The notes beneath the pieces were generated by a model. The model did not search any database. It was not told the origin of the DNA and saw only the letters and a program-made list of their open reading frames with translations. Positions 2,220 to 14,066 of a stretch of DNA of 61,427 nucleotides are shown piece by piece. Position 1 is the stretch's first letter; every line of letters begins with the position of its first letter. Source of the DNA: Actinomycetota bacterium (GTDB lineage Bacteria > Actinomycetota > Actinomycetes > Nanopelagicales > Nanopelagicaceae); NCBI GenBank assembly GCA_015660815.1, contig JACSDF010000004.1:1-61427 (forward strand), given 5' to 3'. Position numbers and translations under genes: made by a program.

Positions 2220-3065
2220 TTATAAGCGACAGGCGTGGATATCCGTAACTAAAATGCCACGTGCTCCAACGTTCCACAGTTCATCCATCACTTGATTAGT
2301 GTCTTTTCGCAAAACCATAGCGCGCACCGCAACCCAATCGGCCTTTTGCAATGGTGAAATTGTCGGAGATTCTAGACCTGGAGTTATTGCACATGCTTCT
2401 TCGACGTTTATTTTAGGAATGTCATAATCCAACAAAACATATCTTCTAGCTGTTACGACTCCCTGAAGGCGTCTTATAAGAACCTCTAGATCCTTTGGAA
2501 TAGCGACGCCTTTTCTAGAGATTACTATCGCTTCACTCGTTAGAATAGCTTCACCGAAAACCTTTAATCCAGCCTGTCTCAGAGTATTGCCTGTACTGAC
2601 CACGTCAGCGATTAAGTCGGCAACTCCTAATCGAACACTGCTTTCAACCGCGCCATCTAATCGCACAATATCGGCTTCAATGGAGAGTGGCTTCAAATAC
2701 GCTGCCACTAATCCCGGATAGGCCGTAGCGATGCGCTTGCCCGCAATTGAATCTACTGACCAATCCTGTGCAATAGGCGCAGCAAAACGAAAAGTGGAGC
2801 CACCAAAATCTAGGTTGATGGACTCTTCGGCATCTGCACCCGAATCTATAAGAAGATCGCGTCCGGTAATTCCCGCCTCAAGCTCTCCAGAGCCTACATA
2901 TATCGCAATATCTCGTGGTCTTAAATAATAGAACTCAACATTGTTATCGATATCTACTAATACTAAATCACGGCTATCCGTACGTTGACGATATCCGGCC
3001 TCTTTTAGTATCTCAATCGATGAATCGGCAAGTGATCCCTTATTTGGTACGGCAACACGCAACAT
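2220..3065 (-). CDS. hisG: ATP phosphoribosyltransferase, long form
   Basis: HisG catalyses the first committed step of histidine biosynthesis, joining ATP and PRPP. The start [16 protein letters not shown] matches the family N-terminus. The PRPP-site region [18 protein letters not shown] is present, and the C-terminal extension of about 75 residues resembles the ACT-like histidine-feedback domain of the long form, which does not need HisZ. Length is 281 residues from ATG 3065; a GTG directly before it is also possible. It follows hisE with a 17-base gap, so the two form a small operon. Confidence 0.95.
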
Positions 3066-3082
3066 CACGTAACTCGATTCTA

Positions 3083-3346
3083 TTAAAGGTATTTGTAGAT
3101 GTCGTTCGGGGTCAAACCACGCACCAACATCATTGTTTGAAGGTGGTAAATCAACTGACTAATCTCCTGCGCAAGTGCCTCATCTGATTCATGCTCTGCC
3201 GCTAGCCAAACTTCCCCGGCCTCTTCTAAAATTTTCTTGCCGATACTATGGGCTCCGGCGTCAACGGCTGCAACTGTTCCTGATCCCTCTGGTCGGACCA
3301 CCATTATTTCGGATAATTCAGCCCAAAGGGTTTCAAAAGATTTCAT
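3083..3346 (-). CDS. hisE: phosphoribosyl-ATP pyrophosphatase
   Basis: HisE hydrolyses phosphoribosyl-ATP to phosphoribosyl-AMP, the second histidine step. The 87-residue protein starts [11 protein letters not shown] and has the family core [17 protein letters not shown] with its metal-binding acidic residues, then [14 protein letters not shown]. It is a stand-alone HisE, not fused to HisI. ATG 3346 is chosen over an in-frame GTG at 3352 because a TAAAGT -10 box lies seven bases upstream and would give a leaderless message. hisG follows directly, so PR-ATP production and its next step are co-expressed. Confidence 0.92.
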
Positions 3347-3353
3347 AACCACT

Positions 3354-3359
3354 ACTTTA
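3354..3359 (-). promoter_or_regulatory. -10 box of likely leaderless hisE-hisG promoter
   Basis: TAAAGT on the minus strand, exactly 7 bases before the hisE ATG. There is no ribosome binding site between box and start. The palindrome at 3371-3383 covers the place where a -35 element would sit. Confidence 0.45.
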
Positions 3360-3370
3360 CTATGAAGCTA

Positions 3371-3383
3371 CAACCTCAGGTTG
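3371..3383. promoter_or_regulatory. palindrome over the hisE -35 region, candidate operator
   Basis: CAACCT-C-AGGTTG is a perfect 13-base palindrome with a single central base, centred about 20 bases upstream of the hisE -10 box. Its position would suit a repressor site. Its half AACCTCA is also complementary to TGAGGTT at 3402-3408, so it could instead be part of a folded RNA. Confidence 0.35.
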
Positions 3384-3404
3384 ATTATTAACTTCACGCT
3401 TTGA

Positions 3405-3428
3405 GGTTTCTAGCCAAGAGTAGAAACC
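3405..3428 (-). terminator. hairpin after rpe, possible terminator without a U tract
   Basis: GGTTTCTA and TAGAAACC form a perfect 8-bp stem around an 8-base loop, 19 bases downstream of the rpe stop. No run of U follows on the minus strand, so this is not a textbook intrinsic terminator. It separates the rpe operon from the hisE promoter. Confidence 0.4.
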
Positions 3429-3446
3429 CCGCAGAACAACGTTGGC

Positions 3447-4112
3447 TTAATCAGCCACAGAGATGGCAAGATCACGCAATGCATTAACCATCACCGCTGG
3501 ATCTTGCGCATTGAAAACAGCACTACCCGCGACAAAGACATCTGCTCCGGCTTCAGAGGCTTCTGCGATAGTTTCCATTGAAACACCACCATCTACTTGT
3601 AGCCAGATTGGTCTATCACCGATTATGGCGCGAGTACGTCGTACTTTTGACATCATTTCATGCATGAATTTCTGCCCTCCAAATCCGGGTTCGACAGTCA
3701 TTATCAAAAACATGTCAACATCGTTAATGACATCGATGTACTCCTCAATTGAAGTAGCGGGCTTTATTCCTAAACCTGCACGCGCGCCTGACTTTTTGAT
3801 TGCACGTAGAGTCGATGAAATATTTTGTGCGGCTTCGGCATGAATCGTGACGCTCGCACAACCTACCTCAGCATAGGCCGGAGCAATCCTGTCAACATCG
3901 GCGACCATCAGATGCGCATCAACGTCAATGGGACAGGATTTAATTATTGTGGTCGCTTGTTCAAAATCAAAAGTAAAGTTCGGAACAAAGATATTGTCCA
4001 TAATATCCAAATGGATTAAATCAGAGACTCCCGCTACTCGAGAGATTTCATTTTCTAAATTCGAGAGATCAGCGTTCAAAATACTTGGTGTAATACGAAT
4101 TTCGCGTCTCAT
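3447..4112 (-). CDS. rpe: ribulose-phosphate 3-epimerase
   Basis: Rpe interconverts ribulose 5-phosphate and xylulose 5-phosphate in the pentose phosphate pathway. The (beta/alpha)8 motifs are clear: ITPSILNADL at the N-terminus, LIHLDIMDNIFVPN, DAHLMV, MTVEPGFGGQKF and VDGGV with phosphate-binding AGSAVF. The metal-binding histidines and aspartates are in these motifs. The frame extends to 4136, but that start overlaps rsmB and adds eight foreign residues. ATG 4112 (MRREIRITPSIL) fits the family and gives 221 residues. It is the last gene of the def-fmt-rsmB-rpe run. Confidence 0.95.
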   Translation of the reverse strand: MRREIRITPSILNADLSNLENEISRVAGVSDLIHLDIMDNIFVPNFTFDFEQATTIIKSCPIDVDAHLMVADVDRIAPAYAEVGCASVTIHAEAAQNISSTLRAIKKSGARAGLGIKPATSIEEYIDVINDVDMFLIMTVEPGFGGQKFMHEMMSKVRRTRAIIGDRPIWLQVDGGVSMETIAEASEAGADVFVAGSAVFNAQDPAVMVNALRDLAISVAD

Positions 4113-4119
4113 GGTGCAC

Positions 4120-5472
4120 CTATGCTCTCTTAACAAAAATGGCTAGAAACATTGCGTCAGTACCGTGCTTATGGGTCCACAGTGCTAGCGCTCCCCCACG
4201 AACCGCTCCTTCAAGTCCGCTCGGCAGGTTTGGAGTAATATCCAGAAGTTCTAATTCAGGATGTTTTTTTAGAATGTCATTAACTTGGACCGTAGTCTCT
4301 GCCAAATGAGGAGAACATGTGGCATATCCCAAGACTGCATGTGGCTCTAGAATTGAAACTGCCGATTCGATGAGTTCACGTTGCAGCGCGGTTAATTCAC
4401 GTAGATCTTGTAGGTTTCGTCGCCATCGAACCTCTGGACGTCGCCGCAAGGCACCCAGTCCCGTACATGGTGCATCAATTAAGATCGCATCAAATTTCTC
4501 ATTGTGCGAAGCGATATCTCGACCATCACCTATCCATACTCGTGCACCGTGGACTACACGTTTTACTAACTGCGCCCGCGGAGTTGAAATCTCATTTGCA
4601 GTGAAATCGATTGATCGCTCTCGAGCAATCGCAGCAAGCAAGGCCGCTTTACCACCAGGGCCTGCACACAGATCCAACCATTTTCCGCCACCAGCAAAGG
4701 AGGCAAAGAGGGTTGCAACTAACTGAGAACCTTCATCTTGTACGCCGGCTAATCGGTGTCTAATTAACTCTAAATTTCCAGGATTGCCTTTCCACCTAGC
4801 TCCTAGCGCAGAGAATTTGGTTGGTTCAGCCCCTATCGCAATCAAATCAGCCTGCGATGAATATCCCGGCCAAGCAACTAACGTCGGTAAGGCGGGAACA
4901 TTGTTGATCGCTAAAGCTAATTCAACCTGATCCCAATCCTTTAACAGATCGTAATATGCAGAAATAATCCACTCAGGATGCGAATATTGAATCGCCATGC
5001 GCTCGATGGGCTCTTTGATATCTTCCAATGGAGCAAACCACTCCTGCATGGACTTGCGGGTAACGTTCCGAAGAAGTGCATTGACAAAACTCGCCTTTGA
5101 TTCACCTACTCGTTTTCGAGCCACCTCTACAGTTGCTGCCACTGCGGCATGATCGGGAATTCGCATCTCATGTAGTTGGTGCACTCCCATTCGAGCGACA
5201 TCAACTATTCCTTCATCAACTTCTGACCATGGTCTATCGCTGATCTGAGACAAAATCCAATCATGTTTGCCCTGCATGCGAATGGTTCCGTAGACGAGTT
5301 CGGTGACCAGATTTCGATCACGTTCTTCCAGCGAACTCTCGGTAAGAGCTTGCGGGAGTAACAAATTCGAATAACCATTATTTCTGTTGACCTCCGAAAT
5401 TAAATCGAAGGCCAATAATCTCGATGCATCAGGTTTAGGTGATTTAAACGTATTCCTGCGCGCCTCAACCAA
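4120..5472 (-). CDS. rsmB: 16S rRNA (cytosine-967-C5)-methyltransferase RsmB
   Basis: RsmB (Sun/Fmu family) methylates C967 of 16S rRNA. Residues 10-140 form the NusB-like RNA-binding domain (LLAFDLISEVNR, LVTELVYGTIR, NALLRNV). The SAM-dependent domain has DLCAGPGGKAALLA, then DAPCTGLGALRRRPEVRW with the first catalytic cysteine and YATCSPHLAE with the second. It begins with TTG at 5472, which overlaps the fmt stop by 8 bases, so translation is coupled. Length (450) is normal. Confidence 0.94.
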   Translation of the reverse strand: MVEARRNTFKSPKPDASRLLAFDLISEVNRNNGYSNLLLPQALTESSLEERDRNLVTELVYGTIRMQGKHDWILSQISDRPWSEVDEGIVDVARMGVHQLHEMRIPDHAAVAATVEVARKRVGESKASFVNALLRNVTRKSMQEWFAPLEDIKEPIERMAIQYSHPEWIISAYYDLLKDWDQVELALAINNVPALPTLVAWPGYSSQADLIAIGAEPTKFSALGARWKGNPGNLELIRHRLAGVQDEGSQLVATLFASFAGGGKWLDLCAGPGGKAALLAAIARERSIDFTANEISTPRAQLVKRVVHGARVWIGDGRDIASHNEKFDAILIDAPCTGLGALRRRPEVRWRRNLQDLRELTALQRELIESAVSILEPHAVLGYATCSPHLAETTVQVNDILKKHPELELLDITPNLPSGLEGAVRGGALALWTHKHGTDAMFLAIFVKRA

Positions 5473-10032: not shown

Positions 10033-11217
10033 TTAACCTAACTGCCGGATGGCGTGATCAAGGAGAAGATTTGCGAGAGCGTCTTTGGAGACTTCCTTGA
10101 GCGCTATATGCGCACCGGTGCGCGTAATAATCATACCCTGCGTCGTATCTTTTCCAAAAATAGCCCCACCGCTGACATCATTAACATAAATAACATCAAG
10201 ACCCTTCGCAGTTAACTTAGCCGAAGCCGATGCAATAAGCTCGCTTGTTTCAGCGGCAAAACCAATCATGACTTGATTCGTTTTGATGGCCGATAAGCTC
10301 GCTAATAAATCAGGTGTTGCTTCAAGTTCAATAACGTCTAACTGATTCTTCTTAATCTTTTCAGAGTATTGATGCAGAGGTCTTGCATCTGCAACCGCTG
10401 CCGCCATCACAAGAATGTCGCATGTGGAAAATTCAAGCGACAAAGCCTGACCCATCTCTTTCGCACTTTCAACGTGGGTTACTTCAACACCTGACAAGTG
10501 AGATGTATCGGTATTTGCCGCAATGAGGTGAACGTGAGCGCCGCGCAAAACCGCCGCTTTAGCGATTGCTAACGCCTGCTTTCCAGAGGAGCGGTTACCG
10601 ATAAATCGAACTGGGTCAATAGCCTCTCTCGTGCCGCCGCCGGTGACTAAAACGCGCTTTCCAAGCAGGTCTTGTGTATGTCCAGTTAATGCATCGAAGA
10701 GCTCAATTATCGCGGCGCTCTCCGGAAACCTTCCCTGACCTGAATCACTCCCAGTTAGCCGTCCGACATCTGGCTCCATGACGGTAAAGCCACGCTCTCG
10801 GAGAAGCGCGACATTTGCCACTGTGGATGCGGCCGTCCACATCGATGGATGCATCGCAGGAACTATGAGAATAGGTGTTTGTGCAGCCAAAACAAGAGAG
10901 GTCAATAGATCATCGGCCCGTCCCCCAGCAATTCGAGCGATTAAATCAGCGGTGGCAGGGGCGATTAGAATAAAATCTGCGCTTTGGGCGATCGAAATAT
11001 GAGAGACCTCATGAACGTTCTCCCACATTTGCGTAAAAACCGGACGGCCAGAGAGTGCGGCCCAGGTAGCTGCGCCGACAAAGTTGAGCGAGGATGGAGT
11101 TGGAACAACGGTTAGCGAATAGCCACGATCTTGTAGGCGACGGAGAAGATCACAGGATTTATATGCAGCTATCCCTGCGCCGACACCGAGAACTACCTCA
11201 CGCGATGCGCCTGACAT
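10033..11217 (-). CDS. coaBC: bifunctional phosphopantothenoylcysteine decarboxylase/synthase
   Basis: This protein catalyses two coenzyme A steps: ligation of cysteine to phosphopantothenate and decarboxylation of the product. The flavin-dependent CoaC domain (residues 1-185) has [32 protein letters not shown] and PAMHPSMW. Histidine replaces the asparagine of the common PxMNxxMW motif, which as I recall also occurs in other actinobacteria. The CoaB domain starts near [21 protein letters not shown] and has [15 protein letters not shown] and the KIKK segment. It lies between rpoZ and metK, as in relatives. Confidence 0.95.
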
Positions 11218-11229
11218 GGTTTTAGTGAG

Positions 11230-11481
11230 TTATGAAGCGGTTGGTTCTAAATTTTCGATAGTTAATAAGCCTTCGTTAATCTCGCGAAGTGCGATAGACA
11301 ACGGCTTTTCATGAACATGTGTCTCAACGAGAGGTCCTACGTACTCAAGAAGACCCTCTCCAAGTTGGGAGTAATACGCGTTAATCTGGCGTGCGCGCTT
11401 TGCGGCATAGAGTACGAGGCTGTACTTAGAGCCACTTTTTTCTAGAAGCTCATCAATTGGTGGATTTGTAATGCCATCCAT
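11230..11481 (-). CDS. rpoZ: RNA polymerase omega subunit
   Basis: An 83-residue omega subunit that assists RNA polymerase assembly by clamping beta prime. The core [20 protein letters not shown] matches the conserved omega helix region, and [15 protein letters not shown] the C-terminal helix. A GGGGA ribosome binding site precedes ATG 11481. It follows gmk by 35 bases, the standard gmk-rpoZ pairing. Confidence 0.93.
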
Positions 11482-11516: not shown

Positions 11517-12389
11517 TCAAGAGGTCAATGCTATCAGTTCTTCCACAACCCGCTCGACTGTGTCGTTAACGATCACCACATCGAAAAATGAGGCTGCAGC
11601 AAGCTCATCCTGGGCTAGCTGTAAACGCTCGGCCCGTCGCGAAGGTGCATCGGTTCCGCGGCCCTCTAATCGGGCAACTAACTCCTCCCACGTAGGTGGC
11701 TCAAGGAATACAAGAACTGCCTGATTGGCGTGGGACTTTACCTGTTTGGCACCCTCAATCTCAATCTCCAACAGGACGTTGCGGCCAGCCAACAAGGCCT
11801 CTTCAACTGCAGCTCGCGGAGTTCCATATCGGTTTCCAGCAAACTCGGCCCACTCCAGAAACTCATCACCCCGGACTCTTCGAGAGAACTCCTCGTCAGA
11901 GATAAAGAAATAGTCAACGCCATCATGCTCATTTGAACGAGGTGCACGAGTAGTCGCTGAGATGCTAACCCAAAAATCTCCAGATTTTCGCAAGCGTGTA
12001 GCCACAGTGCTTTTTCCAACTCCCCCAGGTCCGGATAAAACGAGGAGTTTTCCAGCTTTGGCCGCGTGTGAGCTCTTCATAAATTCGCTCCTCAGCTCTT
12101 TAATTTGATGGCGACCAAGGCCGGCAATCCTGCGATTGGGCGAAATATTCAATCGCTGCATCAAGGCACTTGCACGAACTTTACCAACTCCGGTTAACGC
12201 CTCTAAAAGTTCCCGAACGCGCATCTTGGCTACGGCATCCTCATTAGCTGCAATCTCCAGAACCGTATCAATTGAGAACTCGCCTCGCTTTATTTTTGAT
12301 TTTATTTCAGCACGGCGTTTGCGAGACTGCGCGGCTTTGGCAAGGGCGGCCATCCGCGCTTCGGGAGAGAGTTGTGGAGGTGCGCCCAT
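11517..12389 (-). CDS. gmk: fusion of actinobacterial IHF (mIHF) and guanylate kinase
   Basis: One 290-residue frame covers two proteins that are separate neighbours in most actinobacteria. Residues 1-103 match mIHF, the essential nucleoid-associated DNA-binding protein: QLSPEARMAALAKAAQSRK, KIKRGEF, then the helix-hairpin-helix GVGKVRASALMQRL and RRIAGLGRHQIKEL. From residue 114 guanylate kinase follows (GMP + ATP to GDP + ADP), with P-loop GPGGVGKST at 120-128, SATTRAPRSNEHDGVDY and LLEIEIEGAKQV. M104 is preceded by GAGGAG with 7-base spacing (12088-12093), so a free 187-residue kinase could also be made. Whether the fused form accumulates is unknown. Confidence 0.93.
   Translation of the reverse strand: MGAPPQLSPEARMAALAKAAQSRKRRAEIKSKIKRGEFSIDTVLEIAANEDAVAKMRVRELLEALTGVGKVRASALMQRLNISPNRRIAGLGRHQIKELRSEFMKSSHAAKAGKLLVLSGPGGVGKSTVATRLRKSGDFWVSISATTRAPRSNEHDGVDYFFISDEEFSRRVRGDEFLEWAEFAGNRYGTPRAAVEEALLAGRNVLLEIEIEGAKQVKSHANQAVLVFLEPPTWEELVARLEGRGTDAPSRRAERLQLAQDELAAASFFDVVIVNDTVERVVEELIALTS
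12088..12093 (-). promoter_or_regulatory. internal ribosome binding site for a stand-alone guanylate kinase
   Basis: GAGGAG on the minus strand, 7 bases before the in-frame ATG at 12080-12078, inside the mIHF-Gmk frame. The spacing is ideal and the protein from this ATG would have the normal guanylate kinase length. Confidence 0.55.
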
Positions 12390-12417: not shown

Positions 12418-13122
12418 TCAACGAAGTTGCTCGGCAATTTCAACTGCCCGCTCACGCATTGCACCAGCGCCATTAACCCACTCTCCTGTTATGGGTCTTC
12501 CGATTACGACAAAATTAGCCCCTCGTTCAATTGCTTGTTGAGGAGTCAAAGTACGGACTTGATCATCGGCTGGTGCTCCATTACTAGGACGAACACCTGG
12601 AGTAATAATCGTTACGTCATTACCAAGGGCGGTGCGGATATCTATTATTTCAAGGGGAGAACAAACGATTGCTCGCGCGCCGGCTTCAACTGCGAGTGTG
12701 GCTAATTTAACTGCACTCACCGCTGCATTTTCTTTGAATCCGACTTCTTGAACATCTTTTTCAGACAGAGATGTCAATATGGTTACACCCGTGACAAAGG
12801 TAGTTGGGACTGCTTCAACGGCCGCGGTAATCATTGCACGACCGCCAGATGCATGAACCGTTAAATACTTAGGGTGTAGTGATGAAAGTGCAAGCGCTGC
12901 CGAACTCACGGTATGCGGAATATCGTGGAGCTTTAAATCAAGAAAAATATCAGAGTCCGTGTGATCAAGAACTCTCTTTACTCCATCTCGGCCAAAAGTT
13001 AGATAGAACTCCAAACCCAACTTATAAACAGAGACAACCCCTTGTGTAGCTTTTATCCATCCAAGCGCAGTCTCTAGATCTGGAGTATCAAGAGCTAAAA
13101 CTATTGGCGCCTTCATCTCCAT
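12418..13122 (-). CDS. pyrF: orotidine 5'-phosphate decarboxylase, bacterial short type
   Basis: PyrF converts OMP to UMP, the last de novo pyrimidine step. The catalytic tetrad region DLKLHDIPHT and the phosphate-binding end VIGRPITG are present. The pattern is that of the E. coli/Bacillus-type enzyme and not the longer type found in mycobacteria and streptomycetes. The frame extends upstream to 13155, but ATG 13122 shares a base with the pyrD stop (TAATG), starts MEMKAPIVLALDTPD and has GGAGAT upstream. It gives 234 residues. Confidence 0.95.
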   Translation of the reverse strand: MEMKAPIVLALDTPDLETALGWIKATQGVVSVYKLGLEFYLTFGRDGVKRVLDHTDSDIFLDLKLHDIPHTVSSAALALSSLHPKYLTVHASGGRAMITAAVEAVPTTFVTGVTILTSLSEKDVQEVGFKENAAVSAVKLATLAVEAGARAIVCSPLEIIDIRTALGNDVTIITPGVRPSNGAPADDQVRTLTPQQAIERGANFVVIGRPITGEWVNGAGAMRERAVEIAEQLR

Positions 13123-14066
13123 TATTGCTGATCTCCTACAGGACGATGGGCACATCCAATTGCTCCCTGGAGAGATTCAAAACCTTTAAGCCGCAACAAC
13201 TCTCTTAATTCACTTTGTATCGACACGAGCGCTGTCGGATTTGTAAAGCTCGCGGTGCCAATAGATACCGCACTTGCTCCAGCGGCAATCATTTCGAGTG
13301 CATCTCGGCCAGTTGAGATTCCTCCCATTCCTAATATGGGAGTTTTCGGCAAAGCAGCATGAACTTGATACACGGCGCGCACTGCAATGGGCCTGATTGC
13401 AGGACCTGAAAGACCGCCAGTCTTGCCACCTAAATGCGGACGCATCGTATCTAAATTTATAACCATTCCAAGAACGGTGTTAATCAAGGCTAAAGCATCG
13501 GCTCCAGCATCAACAACGCCTTGTGCGATTGCAACTATATCTGTGACATCGGGTGATAGTTTGGCAATAATCGGAATTTCGCCACCTATCGCGCGACGAA
13601 CGCCATCAATTACTCTGCGTGAAGCATCAGGGTCACAAGCAAATACAAGTCCACGGTTATCAACATTTGGACAGGAGATATTTACTTCGAGCGCACTAAT
13701 TCCGGCAACGGATCGCAACTTGCGAGCAAGAGTTGCATACTCTTCAACGGTTTCTCCTGCAATTGAAACGATAATTCGCGCTTTTTGCTCTATTAAGTAA
13801 GGAATATCATTAGCTATAAATACATCGATACCTGGTCCTTGTAAACCAATTGAATTGAGCATGCCGCTTGGTGTCTCAGCCATTCGTGGGGTTGGTCTTC
13901 CAGTGCGAGCTTTGCTCATAATAGATTTTGTGACTACTCCACCAATGTCGTGAAGTGGGAAAAATTGAGCTAATTCGCGTCCTGAGCTTGCACATCCACT
14001 TGCCGTAAATATTGGCGATGGAAACCAAGCATTTCCAATTGTTGTTGAAAAATCTAGTTCATTCAT
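13122..14066 (-). CDS. pyrD: dihydroorotate dehydrogenase, class 1B catalytic subunit
   Basis: PyrD oxidises dihydroorotate to orotate using FMN. Visible motifs are FTASGCASSGRELAQF, LNSIGLQGPGID, EVNISCPNVDNRG with the class 1 catalytic cysteine, LALINTVLGM and GMGGISTGRDALEMI. Class 1B is inferred from the catalytic cysteine and the directly coupled pyrK, so electrons should pass to NAD. The frame extends to 14129, but ATG 14066 (MNELDFSTTIGN) overlaps the pyrK stop as ATGA and is the natural start, giving 314 residues. Confidence 0.95.
   Translation of the reverse strand: MNELDFSTTIGNAWFPSPIFTASGCASSGRELAQFFPLHDIGGVVTKSIMSKARTGRPTPRMAETPSGMLNSIGLQGPGIDVFIANDIPYLIEQKARIIVSIAGETVEEYATLARKLRSVAGISALEVNISCPNVDNRGLVFACDPDASRRVIDGVRRAIGGEIPIIAKLSPDVTDIVAIAQGVVDAGADALALINTVLGMVINLDTMRPHLGGKTGGLSGPAIRPIAVRAVYQVHAALPKTPILGMGGISTGRDALEMIAAGASAVSIGTASFTNPTALVSIQSELRELLRLKGFESLQGAIGCAHRPVGDQQ

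Follow-up and report, generated by a model that had tools for sequence, protein, structure and literature searches.

One reading frame for mIHF and guanylate kinase

The window, a stretch of 61,427 nucleotides from a freshwater member of the Nanopelagicaceae, carries on its minus strand a single open reading frame of 290 codons (11517..12389) with an ATG start, zero internal stops and its stop codon at 11517–11519. The encoded protein consists of an mIHF domain (residues 1–103; 12081..12389), a linker (residues 104–112; 12054..12080) and a guanylate kinase domain (residues 113–290; 11520..12053). On the same strand, pyrF lies upstream in a conserved operon (12418..13155), and rpoZ (11230..11481) and coaBC (10033..11217) follow downstream, with metK, identified from the sequence alone, beyond coaBC. 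The initial annotation had proposed that mIHF and guanylate kinase share one frame here, and both domains are indeed complete within it. The same unbroken frame is present in the complete chromosomes of Candidatus Planktophila versatilis MMS-IA-79 and Actinobacteria bacterium IMCC19121 (among the best 80 of 213 matches), and the many independent assemblies in which it is intact, together with these chromosomes, rule out an assembly or frameshift artefact. A search of the genome (1.585 Mb, 98% complete) for further copies gave neither another guanylate kinase nor another mIHF. The genome also gives zero matches to Lsr2 and two HU-family matches, and mIHF is therefore not its sole nucleoid protein.

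In profile scans, residues 5–103 match actino_IHF (NF041260; 117.7 bits, against a cut-off of 60), residues 33–103 match the S13-like H2TH domain (PF22525) and residues 113–288 match guanylate kinase (TIGR03263; 215.3 bits, against a cut-off of 160.45). The closest solved relatives of the mIHF half are sIHF (PDB entry 4itq, E = 5e-24) and mIHF (PDB entry 6tob, E = 9e-22), and the closest fold for the kinase half is M. tuberculosis Gmk (PDB entry 1s4q, E = 1e-21). Sixteen kinase columns (G120, P121, G125, K126, R148, R151, E154, Y160, E179, Y188, T190, E208, R240, R244, R255 and N275) are invariant in all 47 aligned fusions, and from what is known of Gmk we take them to be P-loop and substrate-contact positions. 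The P-loop itself, SGPGGVGKS (residues 119–127; 12009..12035, minus strand), holds the invariant columns G120, P121, V124, G125 and K126. Guanylate kinase activity of the fusion is a likely prediction, since this is the only kinase copy detected in the genome. The protein thus resembles Gmk in being a complete kinase with its P-loop and substrate-contact columns, but differs in its N-terminal DNA-binding domain and in that the kinase begins within the mihF frame. MAGUK-type proteins, which appear among the PDB sequence matches, also join a guanylate kinase fold to another domain. They are animal scaffolds whose GK domain is not known to be catalytic, whereas the fusion has intact P-loop and catalytic columns and a DNA-binding partner.

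The AlphaFold2 model contains two confidently predicted domains (mean pLDDT 88.7, pTM 0.60), with the lowest confidence inside the linker (below 50 at residues 106–108), which suggests that the domains have no fixed mutual arrangement. The linker also differs widely in length and sequence between fusions and between genera, and a picture of two working domains on a string would fit better than that of a fixed complex. Both domains are under purifying selection in the window's group: over 23 close pairs from near relatives chosen, as for the Shine–Dalgarno energies given below, for Met or Leu at place 104, mean dN/dS is 0.032/0.743 (about 0.04) for the mIHF domain and 0.023/0.747 (about 0.03) for the kinase, with 0.044/0.732 (about 0.06) for the linker.

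Distribution and origins of the fusion

The near relatives of the window are fused, the opposite of the separate genes that would have spoken against the initial annotation. In the genus of the window, which also holds Ca. Planktophila versatilis, a near full-length, stop-free frame is found in 86 of 88 genomes, including the window's own, and the remaining two, which are 76 and 77% complete, gave zero match. At the level of the family Ca. Nanopelagicaceae (f1), the search matched 189 of 201 genomes. Among the matches listed, the genes are fused in 11 of the 17 sampled genera (g1, g2, g3, g4, g5, g7, g8, g9, g12, g14 and g16) and separate in six (g6, g10, g11, g13, g15 and g17); g3, g5, g12, g14 and g15 are represented by one genome each, and the status of g5 comes from the family survey alone. 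A survey of the class (384 of 394 genomes with a match) added two fused groups among the matches listed, namely the family f36 and genus g103 of the family f34, in which both genomes are fused. When the order of f36 was surveyed (245 of 248 genomes with a match), 17 of 18 f36 genomes had the fusion intact and the eighteenth was cut at the end of a contig; the fusion was absent from the other families of the order, again among the matches listed. These genus, family, order and class surveys all report best matches, so that fusions with low scores outside these groups could escape them. The family f36 (Microbacteriaceae) was identified as containing Microbacterium through a fusion of 298 residues in Microbacterium sp. 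NIBRBAC000506063 (NZ_CP072877.1), which is 74–78% identical to the fusions of f36 genus g83.

Elsewhere, mihF and gmk are adjacent yet separate, as had been supposed: the other families show either two matches or one in-frame stop among the matches listed. In Tsukamurella the order is mihF–gmk–rpoZ–coaBC–metK, all as separate genes, and mihF likewise lies directly upstream of gmk in Gordonia and Arthrobacter loci. These organisms make two proteins whose amounts can differ, which the fusion cannot. In several other families seen in the class and order surveys, both genes share a frame, interrupted between them by one stop codon, and are one mutation away from fusion. Genomes of the family f4 (e.g. 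G422 and G484) provide such a case, with a lone in-frame TAG or TGA parting mihF from gmk; they may be one substitution short of fusion, or read-through may be possible. Two loci from Clostridia-type metagenome-assembled genomes (L093 and L100, at about 2970–4250) carry an mIHF homologue, then a short gene that presumably belongs with RemA/DUF370, which it resembles, and then gmk. If the bins are right, the mIHF–gmk neighbourhood reaches beyond Actinomycetota. In the order survey, genomes of the family f50 gave a gmk match with no mIHF detected in the search. Two further actinomycete loci (L228 and L236) have a gmk match with no mIHF detected within the locus. These cases may reflect mIHF loss, a diverged mIHF or contig ends.

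Trees of carB, pyrK, pyrD, pyrF, coaBC, metK and gmk set f1, f36 and f34 apart, with separate-gene families between them; f36 and f34 were included in three of the four trees, and some deep branches are weakly supported. By parsimony, the fusion therefore arose at least three times. The history inside f1 is more intricate. Its base is unfused (g6/g15 and g10/g13), the unfused genera g11 and g17 fall among the fused ones with good yet not decisive support, and the fewest changes of fusion state are three. A topology that unites the 23 fused f1 rows in a single clade is rejected (p-AU 0.0195), but no longer so when g9 is left out (p-AU 0.12), the clade groups having been named after the tree was viewed. 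The tree used for this test, and for one of the two parsimony counts, was built without g12 (a long branch, with no carB), g13_G026, g6_G032 and g17_G062 and with five outgroups; a mixture-model tree, which gives the second count, was built without sixteen f1 rows, including g12, and with three outgroups, and one further tree without 9 of 60 rows. Within f1, the genes either fused once and were later split again in some genera, or fused several times. The g17 loci (e.g. L142, L152 and L164–L168) have separate genes and an mIHF without the Arg173 equivalent discussed below, and in L165–L168 the mihF stop codon TAG is immediately followed, in frame, by the gmk ATG. This genus is possibly a fusion that split again.

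This distribution bears on the suggestion that the fusion is a neutral result of genome reduction. The fused Microbacteriaceae have genomes of 2.8–4.3 Mb, while six f1 genera with genomes as small as those of their fused relatives keep two genes, and genome reduction is thereby ruled out as the cause.

A basic residue lost from the mIHF half

The fused mIHF halves share with free mIHF and sIHF the full domain with its H2TH fold, the RR-x-x-GLG pattern, most conserved basic residues and the gene neighbourhood. They differ in not being free and in the loss of the third basic residue of the RR-x-R-GLG motif. This motif is nearly fixed in separate-gene mIHF: of the 42 separate-gene groups compared within the class, 39 have Arg at position 89 and three have Lys, where each group is represented by its first sequence, g17 is set aside and the groups may overlap slightly, since coded families could include the named Gordoniaceae and Micrococcaceae. 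In the fusions, by contrast, position 89 is basic in only 2% of f1 rows and in 0% of those of f34 and f36. Of the 46 conserved columns, f1 has lost this one alone, and no other has gone in all three fusion lineages, a column being counted as lost when its residue class is kept in fewer than 10% of rows. The 129 distinct fused domains have Gln (52), Gly (43), Ala (29), Lys (4) or Val (1) at this position, i.e. a non-basic residue in 125, against Arg (74), Gln (12), Lys (6) and Gly (3) in distinct separate-gene domains.

The window carries Ala89 (12123..12125, minus strand), although R86, R87, G90, L91 and G92 of the motif are present. Position 89 aligns to Arg173 of M. tuberculosis mIHF, as counted back from the end of the chain in PDB entry 6tob with its last residue taken as 190. 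Arg170, Arg171, Arg173 and Pro150 of that protein were reportedly found by Sharadamma and co-workers in 2014 to be important for DNA binding or for a tight turn, and we take position 89 to be a DNA-binding residue of mIHF. The Pro150 equivalent, the proline of the tight turn, is mostly lost only in g1, g3 and g4, and is replaced by Thr66 in the window (12192..12194, minus strand).

The loss of the arginine is not strictly tied to fusion, as four fused domains have Lys and the separate-gene domains include exceptions. All of the Gly and nine of the Gln in the latter come from g17, and the other three Gln from outside the class (two Clostridia-type loci and Collinsella). The genus g17 is an exception to the rule, unless its ancestor was fused. 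With the number of origins set conservatively at three, the chance that f34 and f36 would both share the column lost by f1 is about 8/46 × 7/46 = 0.03, a modest figure for a column that was found by looking. On the other hand, the fused halves retain the RR motif, R12, R23, R26 and K30, and because the mean net charge of the domain remains between +6 and +12 in each of the fused groups, DNA binding has probably been changed rather than abolished. For the window, Ala89 would weaken the claim that the protein binds DNA just as free mIHF does, but not that it descends from mIHF.

Products of the locus and candidate functions

We favour, as the probable reading, one bifunctional protein in which a short, flexible linker joins a DNA-binding mIHF module to a guanylate kinase with its full catalytic equipment, and which arose by a stop-loss fusion of neighbouring genes. 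Two neighbouring, co-transcribed genes would have been joined by the loss of a stop codon, a step that was probably cheap, costing a tiny overlap or a spacer, and the fusion would have been retained since both halves still work. Co-transcription before the fusion fits with passages of PMC6155035 stating that deletion of mihF in M. tuberculosis required gmk and rpoZ to be supplied owing to polar effects. The 290-residue protein would then be both the guanylate kinase of the cell and its only mIHF, in a fixed 1:1 ratio, and its DNA-binding half would have been retuned after, or with, the fusion, with one basic residue of RR-x-R-GLG gone in three lineages. We infer that the full-length protein is the product made, that it binds DNA and that it does so with lower affinity than free mIHF or with a smaller number of contacts. 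The 1:1 lock would imply that the kinase is made far above, or mIHF far below, its usual level, and the loss of the arginine may reflect either.

The main alternative was already contained in the initial annotation, namely that one message gives two products, the 290-residue fusion and a normal-length kinase of 187 residues starting at ATG104 (12078..12080, minus strand). The sequence at the junction is as had been described: GAGGAG, a Shine–Dalgarno-like element (12093–12088, minus strand), precedes ATG104 with a 7-base spacer. In the window the Shine–Dalgarno energy at ATG104 is −8.4 kcal/mol, and only 0.5% of 200 synonymous recodings are as strong, while the start of the fusion itself at 12389 has a poor Shine–Dalgarno sequence (about −0.9). 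The ATG is also well kept in the nearest relatives (36 of 37 fusions at ≥70% identity to the window), so that some internal initiation is possible there. This conservation fades with distance, to 38 of 54 fusions at ≥65% identity and 38 of 123 distinct fusions overall (identity to the window being computed outside the junction), and in L038, 84% identical to the window, TTA replaces ATG104. The ribosome-binding element fares worse. It falls to −2.7 in L004, which is 94% identical to the window, and its mean over the 38 sequences with ATG104, −2.83 kcal/mol, equals the synonymous expectation (−2.76 kcal/mol). The internal start is thus preserved as an ATG among the nearest relatives, but its Shine–Dalgarno sequence is not, nor is the start preserved in fusions in general, and the ATG may be a mere relic of the old gmk start.

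Most other fusions have no comparable start. Within the 13 junction codons of 106 distinct fusions (104 of Nanopelagicaceae type and two from f34, with f36 counted apart), an ATG or GTG is found in 60, an ATG or GTG with a Shine–Dalgarno energy of ≤ −5 kcal/mol in only 15, and no ATG, GTG or TTG at all in 26. In f36, 13 of 17 junctions have no start codon and the other four have a GTG with a weak Shine–Dalgarno sequence; none has an ATG, and 0 of 17 reach ≤ −5 kcal/mol with an ATG or GTG. A normal-length kinase is therefore not a general second product of these genes, and the conserved start codon with a conserved Shine–Dalgarno sequence by which dual products would be recognized is lacking at the junction. 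Since gmk is essential and only one copy was detected in the genome of the window, the simplest view of species that lack a junction start codon is that the fusion serves as their kinase, barring a non-standard or more distant start. We consider the two-product reading unlikely.

A bolder form of the single-protein reading, which we hold to be distinctly unlikely, is that on at least three occasions an abundant nucleoid protein became a DNA-tethered guanylate kinase, its grip on DNA weakened each time through the loss of one and the same arginine, with GMP phosphorylation tied to the nucleoid as a result. Such a tie could rest on position, 1:1 dosage or allostery. If true, it would define a new class of nucleoid protein carrying a metabolic enzyme, found throughout entire actinomycete families and named there simply "guanylate kinase".

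It seems improbable, conversely, that only the kinase matters and that the mIHF half is a tolerated passenger, drifting and with no useful DNA binding. The absence of the Arg173 equivalent from every fusion lineage, the frequent absence of the Pro150 equivalent in g1, g3 and g4 and the lower actino_IHF scores of three scanned f36 proteins (66–75 bits, with the cut-off at 60) would agree with such a drift. The low dN/dS of the domain in the window's group, the loss of just one of 46 conserved columns in f1 and the retained basic residues and positive charge argue against it. Regulatory coupling, in which DNA occupancy alters GMP phosphorylation or the GMP/GDP or ppGpp state alters DNA binding and the protein connects the nucleotide pool to the nucleoid, would accord with at least three origins, stable retention and the loss of one specific residue each time, but is highly improbable, as the variable linkers and the lack of a fixed interface in the model oppose tight allostery and the genes were already neighbours (as they also are in Collinsella and in Clostridia-type loci), so that no selective reason is required.

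Both protein families are known, and their joined form sits in public annotation without remark; searches of open-licence PMC papers, PMC6155035, PMC4255298 and PMC3724605 among them, gave no description of the fusion. What is new here is the loss of the Arg173-equivalent column, common to all three fusion lineages. According to passages of PMC6155035, mIHF is essential in M. tuberculosis and ranks among the ten most abundant proteins of that species. There is no need for a nucleotide kinase to match this abundance, and yet the 1:1 lock spans one family and most of another, which raises the question of how a nucleoid protein works while dragging an enzyme. The fused lineages offer natural experiments, in which the same change was made independently three or more times and the same arginine went each time, and some of their members, such as Microbacterium, are easily grown.

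In these families mIHF can hide as "guanylate kinase", which is the sole annotation of the 298-residue Microbacterium fusion. The record that contains it (L312; NZ_CP072877.1, 433723–446496) is labelled a plasmid of 465 kb. It holds pyrF, annotated in two pieces, the fused gmk, rpoZ, metK and priA, with two Fic-type genes between the fused gmk and rpoZ, and looks like a piece of the chromosome.
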